DNA of 6,299 nt. Source: Syntrophobacterales bacterium (GTDB taxonomy: Bacteria > Desulfobacterota > Desulfobaccia > Desulfobaccales > 0-14-0-80-60-11). The position numbers and the translations under genes were made by a program. The notes beneath the pieces are model-generated. The model was given only the letters and a program-made list of their open reading frames with translations, made no database searches and was not told where the DNA came from. Below, piece after piece: positions 2,497 through 6,171 of this stretch (positions within the stretch are counted from its first letter, which is position 1; each line of letters opens with the position of its first letter). Where the stretch lies: the NCBI GenBank assembly GCA_020052215.1, contig JAGVPN010000471.1:1-6299 (forward strand), given 5' to 3'.

Positions 2497-5400
2497 GTGA
2501 CACCTGAAATCTACGAATGGGAATTCACTGCGGATGTGGCGAGCTGGATCAATGAAATCCTGGTCAAATCCCCCCGTTTGCCCTTCTCCAGGGCGAAATG
2601 CGAGCAGCCCAGCTCCGGCTCCCGCAAGCGCCGGGATTTGACCCTGCTTGACCAGGATAAGAGGGCCGTTCTAACCGGCGAAGTCAAGATGCCATGGGCA
2701 AATGACGGCCGCAGTCCTTACAACAATGCCGTAGTGCAAGACGCCAGGAGAAAGGCCCGACTTGCCGAGGTCCGGTTCTTCTTCACCTGGAACGTCAATG
2801 AGTTCGTTCTGTGGGAAACTGATTCCGCCGAAGCTCCCTTAAAAGACCGCCAGTTTAAATCCTGGCCGGTAGCTCAAGTTCATAAGTCACACCATCTTAA
2901 GCTCTCCAGCGCCATCCAGGCCCTCAAAACCTGGCTCGCAGATTTTCTTTCTGAGTTTGCCAAAATTTACCACGGCGTGGCCCTACTGGGCACTCAGTTG
3001 CCCGATGAAAAATTTCTTCGGATGCTGGAGGCTGCCCTCCACCAGCCCATTTGCTACACCCAGGACGAACTGGAAAAGTGCTATGAGCAGCCCAAGTTAA
3101 AGAGGGACCTCGATCTGTGGATGAAGGCTAAAGGCTGGCTCATTGTCGATGACCCCGAAGGGGTGCGGGATAATCTGGAGAGGGCCGCCAAGTACGCCTG
3201 CTATGCCCTGGTCAACAAGATAGTCTTCCATGAGGCCCTGCTCAAACGCTATGCCGGGATGATGGAAAAGCTCTCGGTCGACAACAATATCAAGAAGGGG
3301 GATGATCTATACCCCCGTTTAGAGAAATACTTCCTGCAAGCTAAGGAAGTCACTAAGGATTATGAGACCGTATTTGGTGAAGAGCATACCGGCATCGGCA
3401 ACCGCATTCCCTTTTACTCCGACCACGCCGTCCCCTATTGGCGCGACCTCATTAACCAAATCCACGATTTCGACTTCTCCCAGCTCGACTATGAGGTGAT
3501 TGGGAATATTTTCGAAAGGCTGTTATCCCCTGGAGAACGCAAGAAATATGGGCAATTCTATACCCGCGTTGAGGTGGTGGACCTCATCAACAGTTTTTGC
3601 ATTACCCGCGGCCAGGAGAAGGTGATGGACCCGGCCTGCGGCGGTGGCACCTTCCTGGTGCGGGCTTATGCCCGCAAACGAATCCTGGCACCTGGACGGA
3701 AACACGGAGAACTGCTCTCCGATCTCTTCGGGGTAGATGTCGATGAGTTTGCCGCCCACCTCACCACCATCAACCTGGCTACCCGGGACCTCATTGACGC
3801 CGAAAATTATCCCCAGATTGTTCGCAGCGACTTTTTCGACCTGAAGGCGGACAAGGCCTTCATGTCTTTGCCGATCCACAGTAAGGGCCTGGGAAAAATC
3901 CAGCGCCGGAAAGTAGAAATTCCCCGCCTGGATGCGGTCATCGGCAATCCCCCTTATGTCCGGCAGGAACAGATTCGTAAAGCCAAAAATGGCAAAAACC
4001 CGGAGCGCGGCACCAAAGAATATTATCAGGCCCTGGTGCAGCGGGAGATGGGGGCCAACCTGGGAGGCCGCAGTGACATTCACTGCTATTTCTGGCCCCA
4101 TGCCGCCGGCTTCTTGAAAGAGGACGGCTATCTCTGTTTGCTCACCTCCAGCCAGTGGCTGGATGTGGAATACGGCTTCCGCCTGCAAGAATGGATTCTC
4201 CGGAACTTCGAGATCGTGGCCGTGTTCGAGAGCATCGACGAACCCTGGTTTGTGGGGGCCCGGGTGGCCACCGCGGTGACCATTCTTCGCCGTCAACCGG
4301 AAGAAAAAAAGCGGATGCTGAACCCGGTGCGCTTCGTGCAACTGCGCCGCCCCATCCGGGAGATTCTCACCCATGATGTCACCGCGGGAGGGGCTTTCGA
4401 GGCCGCAGACGATTTTCGCAATGAAATCCTGGCTCTGCAAGCCAACACTGTTAATGAACGGTACCGCGCCCGCTTGGTGCGCCAGGGGGATTTGTGGAAA
4501 GACGGAGTACGGCTGGGGGTGATCATGGGCCGGTCCAAACACCCCGCCAACGATGACCCCGAACTTCAAGACGGTGAATATTACGGGGGCAAGTGGGGGA
4601 TTTTTCTGCGCGCCCCGGACCTGTGGTTTGAGTTATTGGATAACTTGGGAACTCGTTTCACCCACTTGGGGGACATTGCGGATGTGCGCTTCGGGGTGAA
4701 AACCGGCAATGACAGCTTCTTTTTCCCCATCGACGCCAGTGAGCAGTGCCTTGCTGGCCATGCCGACCCCAACGATTTTAAAACAACCTATGGCGTCCCC
4801 CGGAAAACCGTGGAATCCGGCCAGGTCAAGCTGGTGCGCTGCGGGGAAGGAAGAGGCGAAATCCGGCCCATTGAAGCCAGATATCTGGAACCGGAAGTCC
4901 ATAACCTTATGCAGGTCAATAGGTTTTCTGTAGACCCCCAGGATTGCTCTCACATGATGCTCTTTGTAAGTGATTCAAAGGATGAGCTTAAAACTACATT
5001 GGTTCATAGATATATTCGTTGGGGGGAGAAACGAAATGTTCACATGGGTTCGACGGTAGCCGGTCGTGCCACCAAAGAACATGATTGGTACGACCTAACA
5101 TTAAATAAACGGGCAGATATAATATTACCTAAAATACAACAATATAGGCTTATTTCATTCCTAAATCCAGAAAAAACTCATATCAATTCATCGCTACTCG
5201 GAATATATAATGTACAAAATGACATAGTTAAGCCGCTTTGCGCTATATTAAATAGCACTATTTCCATTTTATCACGCTTAATTTATGCAAGGATTCTCGG
5301 CAATGAAGGTAACATTCAATTAGATGTGTATTCTGCAAAAATGATGTTGGTTCCAGATATTGTACATTATAATTCACAACCACTCATTGATAAAATAAAT

Positions 5401-6171
5401 TTATCGTTTGACAAAATGCTCGATAGGGAGGTCGTAGGTTTTATTCCTGAGCGGCGTTTACGGCACATGGCCTATACCCAGGCGGGGAAAGAAGCCGAAC
5501 TGGAAAAACTCTCCGACCTCTGCGAACTGGACCTGGCCGACCGTCGGGAACTGGACGATGCGGTCCTGGAAATGCTGGGCGTGGAGTCCGCGGCGCGGCG
5601 GCAAGAACTCCGAGAGGAGCTTTACGACTATCTGCGGGAGTTCTTCGAGTTAACCCGCCAGAAAGAAGAAAAGGCCATTGCCAATAAGAATAAGGCCCGG
5701 CGCCGGGGCCAGGCCAGTCCTACGGAGATCGCCGCTCAAATCCTGGCCGAAATGAGCGAGAGCCACCCCGACTTGCTCCGCGGCTACGATCCCGACTTCC
5801 TGGACCCGACCAAGCCCTTCGACACCTTCGATCTCCCCGGCGAAGGCGTTCCCCACCTCCTGAAAGACACCAATCCCCTCCTGTACGATCGGGGCGTGGT
5901 CTTCCTGAAAGGCAAAAAACCCCTCGCCAACCTCATTACCAAAACCCCGGAACAAGACCCCCTCATCATCCTCCTGGCCCGCTCCGGCCTCCACGGCCTG
6001 GTGCGCCTCCCCCACGACCCGGAAGAATGCCGGCGACTCCACCAGGAATACGCCGATTTCCTCCGGCTCCGGGATGAAACCATCCAGGAACTGATCGCCA
6101 ACCGCACCCTGGACGAAGACATGCAGGGAAAAATCTACACCGCCCTCATGCCCCGCCTCCTGTGGGGCTAA
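2497..6171 (+). CDS. Type IIG (Eco57I-like) restriction-modification enzyme: fused nuclease, N6-adenine methyltransferase and specificity region
   Basis: This 1224-residue single-chain enzyme starts at GTG 2497 behind AAGGG (2486-2490). Residues 1-130 resemble an HsdR-type PD-(D/E)XK nuclease: RRDLTLLD (45-52, Asp47), GEVKMP (61-66, Glu62 and Lys64) and a following VVQDARRKA helix. A helical linker spans about 135-345. The methyltransferase (about 350-600) has GQFYT (352-356), motif I DPACGGGTFL (378-387), FGVDVDEFA (411-419) and catalytic GNPPY (483-487); it transfers methyl from SAM to adenine N6. The target-recognition region runs from about 665 to 955: LGDIADVRFGVKTGNDSFFF (724-743), then LNSTISIL (918-925) and VYSAKMMLVPD (944-954). 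Residues 985-1224 are a charged, largely helical extension I do not recognise. No separate R, M or S subunit lies nearby, as expected for type IIG. Bases about 4900-5450 are strikingly AT-rich. Three tandem stops (TAA TAA TAG, 6169-6177) end the frame. BREX PglX or DISARM DrmMI are alternatives, but the N-terminal nuclease and absence of partners argue against them. Confidence 0.9.
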   Translation: MTPEIYEWEFTADVASWINEILVKSPRLPFSRAKCEQPSSGSRKRRDLTLLDQDKRAVLTGEVKMPWANDGRSPYNNAVVQDARRKARLAEVRFFFTWNVNEFVLWETDSAEAPLKDRQFKSWPVAQVHKSHHLKLSSAIQALKTWLADFLSEFAKIYHGVALLGTQLPDEKFLRMLEAALHQPICYTQDELEKCYEQPKLKRDLDLWMKAKGWLIVDDPEGVRDNLERAAKYACYALVNKIVFHEALLKRYAGMMEKLSVDNNIKKGDDLYPRLEKYFLQAKEVTKDYETVFGEEHTGIGNRIPFYSDHAVPYWRDLINQIHDFDFSQLDYEVIGNIFERLLSPGERKKYGQFYTRVEVVDLINSFCITRGQEKVMDPACGGGTFLVRAYARKRILAPGRKHGELLSDLFGVDVDEFAAHLTTINLATRDLIDAENYPQIVRSDFFDLKADKAFMSLPIHSKGLGKIQRRKVEIPRLDAVIGNPPYVRQEQIRKAKNGKNPERGTKEYYQALVQREMGANLGGRSDIHCYFWPHAAGFLKEDGYLCLLTSSQWLDVEYGFRLQEWILRNFEIVAVFESIDEPWFVGARVATAVTILRRQPEEKKRMLNPVRFVQLRRPIREILTHDVTAGGAFEAADDFRNEILALQANTVNERYRARLVRQGDLWKDGVRLGVIMGRSKHPANDDPELQDGEYYGGKWGIFLRAPDLWFELLDNLGTRFTHLGDIADVRFGVKTGNDSFFFPIDASEQCLAGHADPNDFKTTYGVPRKTVESGQVKLVRCGEGRGEIRPIEARYLEPEVHNLMQVNRFSVDPQDCSHMMLFVSDSKDELKTTLVHRYIRWGEKRNVHMGSTVAGRATKEHDWYDLTLNKRADIILPKIQQYRLISFLNPEKTHINSSLLGIYNVQNDIVKPLCAILNSTISILSRLIYARILGNEGNIQLDVYSAKMMLVPDIVHYNSQPLIDKINLSFDKMLDREVVGFIPERRLRHMAYTQAGKEAELEKLSDLCELDLADRRELDDAVLEMLGVESAARRQELREELYDYLREFFELTRQKEEKAIANKNKARRRGQASPTEIAAQILAEMSESHPDLLRGYDPDFLDPTKPFDTFDLPGEGVPHLLKDTNPLLYDRGVVFLKGKKPLANLITKTPEQDPLIILLARSGLHGLVRLPHDPEECRRLHQEYADFLRLRDETIQELIANRTLDEDMQGKIYTALMPRLLWG
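4900..5450 (+). other. AT-rich island inside the specificity region of the restriction-modification gene
   Basis: My base counts give 89 G/C in 300 bases (about 30%) for 5101-5400, against 39 of 60 (65%) at 5521-5580 in the same gene. GC begins to fall near 4900 and recovers sharply around 5450-5460, although 5041-5100 is locally higher at about 53%. The codons change accordingly: ATA, TTA, AAT and AAA become common here and are rare elsewhere in the gene. The reading frame is intact throughout. The island covers about residues 802-985, the distal part of the target-recognition region, which fits a recombined segment of foreign origin. Confidence 0.7.

Follow-up and report, generated by a model that had tools for sequence, protein, structure and literature searches.

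Natural exchange of recognition domains has been described in several single-chain restriction-modification enzymes. The Campylobacter jejuni type IIG alleles Cj0031 and CjeFV are 90–99% similar overall, and the 136–140 residues of their predicted target-recognition domain (TRD) region hold 87–91 differences; the alleles methylate CCYGA, GGRCA and GAAGAA, and the Cj0031 alleles are a practical case of a single exchange re-aiming an enzyme (PMC4889913). TaqII and TaqIII of Thermus aquaticus are near-identical single-chain enzymes that differ mostly in the putative TRD and recognise different sites, and a Desulfobacca acetoxidans relative listed in that paper has 1091 amino acids (aa) (PMC5587805). 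That one recognition-domain exchange re-aims both cutting and methylation has been argued for type IIG and IIL enzymes (PMC4833311). Here we describe a predicted single-chain type IIG-like gene (positions 2497–6171, forward strand) on a 6299-base stretch from a Syntrophobacterales bacterium, which is the whole of contig C334 and is called the window herein. An AT-rich patch in this gene is very probably an exchangeable target-recognition cassette (aa 801–984; 4897–5448, forward strand) with a history unlike that of the remaining protein, which we refer to as the backbone; most likely the whole block was exchanged, with a likely change of recognised motif.

The first line of evidence is a collapse in identity between close relatives. 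Searching with the protein retrieved 725 homologs (E ≤ 1e-20), 120 of them listed; 117 of the listed proteins, each at least 1150 aa long and the window's own included, were aligned, and a wider comparison covered 179 rows, several locus rows of which duplicate listed proteins. Twelve of the 15 closest homologs among the matches listed carry a different segment: they are 74–89% identical to the window's enzyme outside it and 34–43% inside it, with breakpoints at aa 801–806 and 983–986, or about nucleotides (nt) 4897–5448. The patch had been predicted at 4900–5450, which fits these breakpoints, and the collapse is confined to this interval in all 12. Beyond aa 801–1000 these homologs are at least 60% identical in every 40-aa window, bar four at 52–57% (P0006, P0009, P0016). 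The window's segment is common to P0002, P0005 and P0008 among the same 15.

Backbones and cassettes also occur in crossed combinations. The window and P0003 are 89% identical in the backbone and 37% in the cassette, and P0002 and P0014 are 91% and 35% identical, respectively; conversely, the window and P0002 are 83% identical in the backbone and 94% in the cassette, and P0007 and P0013 82% and 98%. Across the 179 rows, 134 pairs have backbones of 85% identity or more, and in 34 of these the cassette falls below 55%. The nearest relative of the window's enzyme changes along the chain, from P0003 upstream (90.4%) to P0002 in the cassette (93.3%) to P0009 and P0004 downstream (both 87.6%). The TRD thus differs between near-identical flanks, as natural TRD exchange would have it. 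Domain movement between two TRD positions would place one sequence at two sites in different alleles; the cassettes aligned here share one set of columns, though no search was aimed at copies displaced within the proteins.

Phylogenies of the two parts disagree. A common phylogeny for all segments, which the original prediction had named as the outcome that would count against a mosaic, did not appear: the segment in the distal recognition region has a history separate from the single one shared by the remaining protein. On quick LG+G4 trees built from 30 selected rows, comprising the 16 closest and a further 14, the window's cassette class, class A, requires nine changes on the backbone tree, against a mean of 9.2 with shuffled labels, and one on the cassette tree, the latter partly by construction because the class is defined by cassette identity. 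In approximately unbiased (AU) tests, the cassette data rejected the groupings of the window with P0003 (p 0.0001), P0002 with P0014 (p 1e-6) and L024, L025 and L035 (p 0.0004). The backbone data in turn rejected a clade of the window and P0002 (p 6e-71), a clade of the four sister enzymes with the window's cassette (p 6e-5) and a single clade of all eleven class-A rows (p 1e-62).

The same kind of replacement could be followed at the DNA level in Syntrophus, which supports the predicted exchange of a segment. L025 and L035, both from Syntrophus sp., match at 92.8% over 1853 bp and, after a 481-bp gap, at 93.1% over 741 bp; blastn found no match (E up to 1e-10) between the 481 bp enclosed by these flanks, and the borders lie at about aa 810 and aa 980 in window coordinates. 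L025 and L024 carry the window's cassette class and are AT-rich there (GC content at third codon positions, GC3, 0.47 vs 0.79), and L035 carries another class that is GC-rich (GC3 0.77 vs 0.82). L024 and L025 themselves share 93.3% DNA identity over the whole gene, cassette included. In a Syntrophaceae relative (L037:8088–8089), about 665 bp are absent relative to L035; about aa 700–915, including much of the cassette, are lost and the frame is broken.

The cassette of the window also stands out in base composition. GC content is 55.5% over codons 1–800, 34.2% over codons 823–978 and 61.7% over codons 985–1224, with a minimum of 30% in 200-base windows; the sharp fall and return that had been described are present, but the flanks, at 55–62%, lie under the 65% claimed for them. 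The matching codon shift was borne out, as GC3 passes from 0.68 to 0.28 to 0.77 over the same codons in a frame that is open throughout, and the cassette's 0.28 compares with 0.70 for the remaining gene. A two-breakpoint GC3 scan placed the AT-rich part of the cassette at codons 823–984 (4963–5448, forward strand), with a likelihood ratio of 104 versus at most 24 in 40 permutations. From its amino acids and the sampled host codon usage, the patch would be expected to have a GC3 of 0.72 (observed 0.28, z = −13), and no host window is as low among the 740 sampled, each 156 codons long (minimum 0.42, median 0.78). This host sample comprised mechanically called open reading frames (ORFs) of at least 200 codons on 20 of the genome's 514 contigs, three of the 20 being N only.

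Strongly AT-rich cassettes recur in the family. Among 17 loci with DNA, five have one (the window, L023, L003, L024 and L025), with GC3 borders near aa 806–823 and 968–1003 and likelihood ratios of 80–108; the remaining 12 gave ratios of 10–26, mostly for other segments. The five represent at least three cassette lineages, and one of them, L003, lies in a single-contig genome. L003 and L023, from the window's order, hold AT-rich cassettes (aa 806–1003 in window numbering) of lineages other than the window's. In 15 of the 17 loci, GC3 is lower inside the cassette than outside it, and recognition domains diverge quickly, and both points would suit a segment that is never exchanged but diverges fast in place and drifts towards AT through local mutation or selection. 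We regard this as very improbable, and as a full explanation it is contradicted by the sharp borders, by cassettes shared between unlike backbones, by unlike cassettes in backbones that are nearly identical, and by the AU tests. The cassettes of L035 and L033 are moreover GC-rich (GC3 0.77 and 0.82), although a local bias could still add to AT-richness.

We also considered and rejected an intrinsic AT-richness of the whole cassette class: GARP/FYMINK in 50 class-A cassettes spans 0.45–1.40 and tracks the backbone (r = 0.56), with the window's sub-lineage (P0001, P0002, P0005, P0008) at the low end, 0.45–0.52. Returning to exchange, repeated import from AT-rich hosts likely explains the AT-richness, a segment-level bias towards AT being possible; that of the window's cassette probably stems from an earlier host of its lineage. 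Tentatively, cassettes may form a circulating gene pool of their own that crosses genera, orders and phyla via fixed conserved borders, the pool feeding GC-rich Thermodesulfobacteriota being AT-biased. If so, unrelated cassettes would arrive AT-rich in GC-rich genes repeatedly.

The source of the window's cassette is a separate question, and here the original prediction fared less well. It had proposed a recent exchange with a much more AT-rich donor genome; no such genome was found. A donor search with aa 801–1000 gave 96 matches among 814 candidate proteins, the nearest cassettes being those of P0002 (about 94%), P0005 (78–79%) and P0008 (76–77%). Full-length cassettes at least 70% identical occur only in these three, the next best reaching 61%; their backbones are 77–83% identical to the window's and as GC-rich-like, judged from amino-acid make-up rather than DNA. 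A fragment, P0129 (685 aa, ending inside the cassette), matches at 86% over 54% of the cassette and also belongs to the sister clade (81% identical overall). A closer source was absent from 395 genomes drawn from the window's phylum (four matches, own genome included), from 392 Planctomycetota genomes (four matches, none nearer) and from 132 genomes of L032's phylum (three matches, none nearer), all searched with the cassette plus short flanks. Plasmids, searched with cassette and whole-protein queries, gave no cassette match and distant whole-protein matches only; phages, searched with the whole protein only, gave distant matches, and two scans of viral contigs by short peptide patterns gave none.

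Direct, recent import from a much more AT-rich genome would account for the GC3 contrast between the cassette and the rest of the gene, and for the window and P0002 being nearer in the cassette than in the backbone. We consider it unlikely, since the nearest cassettes sit in sister backbones of GC-rich-like make-up, nothing closer emerged from the three genome sets, and L024 and L025 carry an AT-rich cassette across 7% DNA divergence. The Syntrophus pair also means that AT-richness does not indicate recent arrival, and composition therefore does not date the exchange. As the nearest cassettes lie in sister backbones and nothing closer was found, the cassette was probably last passed on by a P0002-like sister enzyme from within this backbone clade.

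Because cassette and backbone have had different histories, an exchange of the whole cassette at once is the most likely event, presumably via homologous recombination. Conserved stretches at the borders (e.g. E793, E800, H802 and M805; R987 and R989) could supply the homology, and recombination in these flanks would replace the cassette in one piece. A shared recognition domain would aim both the nuclease and the methyltransferase; one swap would therefore re-aim both and change the motif that is cut and methylated, and such a change of motif is likely here.

Exchange at fixed borders also resembles phase-variable specificity genes, in which case the segment would be shuffled by programmed switching that draws on silent cassette copies or inverted repeats elsewhere in its genome. 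This seems extremely improbable: searches for a second copy of the cassette returned just one match in the window's own genome (73% complete) and none or one in each of ten others, and no repeat near both borders was seen among 20 of 28 direct families and the 23 inverted pairs listed. An assembly chimera, in which sequences of different strains were fused where they are conserved, would draw on the state of the source assembly (2.8 Mb, 514 contigs, 73% complete) and on conserved borders as places where assemblers could jump. We give it very little probability, as the frame is intact, the same AT-rich cassette pattern occurs in the single-contig genome carrying L003, and P0002, which has the nearest cassette, is nearest to neither flank, so that a chimera would need two jumps. 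A single-contig genome of 3,282,536 bases, G024, belongs to the window's order.

We turn to the predicted enzyme that carries the replaced cassette. The ORF at 2497–6171 is uninterrupted, starts with GTG and encodes 1224 aa plus stop; it matches Pfam Eco57I and N6_Mtase and the PADLOC model REase_MTase_IIG (E 5.6e-39). Its first part (aa 1–125, border approximate; 2497–2871, forward strand) is a predicted nuclease domain with an alpha/beta fold in the model; D47, E62 and K64 (D47...E62-x-K64), present in 175, 177 and 174 of 179 aligned rows, read as a predicted PD-(D/E)XK nuclease site by their motif. The N6-adenine methyltransferase core (aa ~300–620; 3394–4356, forward strand), assigned by Pfam, contains motif I, DPACGGGTF (3628–3654), nearly invariant among the 179 rows, and motif IV, NPPY (3946–3957), kept in all 179. 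The proximal recognition region (aa ~621–800; 4357–4896, forward strand) is spanned by structure matches to CamA, M.BseCI and M.TaqI, lacks the identity collapse and is linked to the backbone. Downstream of the cassette, a C-terminal helical region with a predicted alpha/beta end (aa 985–1224; 5449–6168, forward strand; GC3 0.77; modelled to aa 1198) sides with the backbone in its identity to relatives; the alpha/beta end itself (aa ~1100–1224; 5797–6168) has no Pfam match.

The predicted structure of aa 1–1198 has a predicted local distance difference test (pLDDT) score of 85.6 and a predicted template modelling (pTM) score of 0.74. Its best alignments are to CamA, M.BseCI and type I M subunits and, when more of the chain is matched, to BpuSI, MmeI, BrxX and DrdV; the CamA, M.BseCI, M.TaqI and BpuSI matches extend beyond the methyltransferase to aa 957–1050. 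Judged by sequence and prediction, the protein thus combines an N-terminal nuclease and a gamma-class N6-adenine methyltransferase in one chain, with a TRD downstream of the methyltransferase indicated by the model matches and by a weak TaqI_C match at aa 837–922. The type IIL (MmeI) family profile PF20473 scored 23.0 bits against a curated cut-off of 27, and exceeded it in one of eight homologs scanned (P0016, 27.7); the NCBIfam equivalogs for MADS MAD2 and BREX PglX scored 49 bits against a cut-off of 720 and 19 bits against one of 400, respectively.

Several points weigh against an exchanged recognition cassette or narrow it. Backbone and cassette identity correlate over all pairs of the 179 rows (r = 0.52), and the AU-test groups were picked with identities already seen, a caution in the test's own note. 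P0005 (cassette 78%, backbone 81% identical to the window) and P0008 (76% and 77%) share the cassette at backbone-like divergence, so recent exchange does not hold for every cassette. Relatives with the segment at flank-like divergence had been named as a pattern that would undermine the original prediction, and it was borne out in part, by these two. By composition, the 5' cassette edge (codon 823) lies about 20 codons inside the identity edge, codons 801–822 being already host-like (GC3 0.64). The TaqI_C match falls under the Pfam cut-off and was listed (E up to 0.05) for one of eight homologs scanned (P0002). The conserved proximal recognition half (aa ~621–800) may co-determine specificity, and enzyme activity and recognised motif are predicted for the members of this family.

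Elsewhere in the window, an ORF at 1225–1818 resembles a family 2 glycosyltransferase in its C-terminal part, with weak Pfam matches to the later half of the profile; the N-terminal half is absent in that frame, and this stretch has DNA matches of 67–78% in many genomes of the family. Positions 1–390 and 703–1137 encode two small proteins, similar by eye, and both stretches were matched on one contig in several family genomes.

The window is a well-supported new case of a known process, natural cassette exchange, in which a single recombination event could change cutting and protection together. The pairs window/P0003, P0002/P0014 and L025/L035 are natural before-and-after examples with mapped borders, which can help to link cassettes with their recognition motifs and to guide the making of chimeric enzymes, and the case warns that an AT-rich patch should not be taken as a recent import from an AT-rich donor. 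A literature search, with most subscription journals outside its scope, found neither a report of AT-rich patches in TRDs nor anything on the 1224-aa family in Desulfobacca. The D. acetoxidans homolog P0041 (1231 aa) differs in length from the 1091-aa D. acetoxidans relative listed with TaqII and TaqIII, and those two enzymes differ at 71 residues in about 1105 aa, whereas the window's segment is replaced down to 34–43% identity (PMC5587805). Unlike the MmeI/type IIL family (PMC4833311), the window's enzyme scores below the cut-off for the MmeI methyltransferase Pfam. As in type I S subunits and the Helicobacter type IIG S subunit, recognition domains appear to be replaced by recombination in conserved flanks, but in those systems the S subunit is a protein of its own whose two TRDs can change places, while the window has one enzyme-fused cassette at a constant alignment position (PMC3077401). 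Cj0031 and CjeFV are similar in being single-chain type IIG alleles that diverge strongly in one region predicted as TRD; they vary within one species and are phase-variable by a polyG tract, whereas the window's family varies between species and genera, in a segment of about 184 aa with a GC step and a likely, predicted motif change (PMC4889913).

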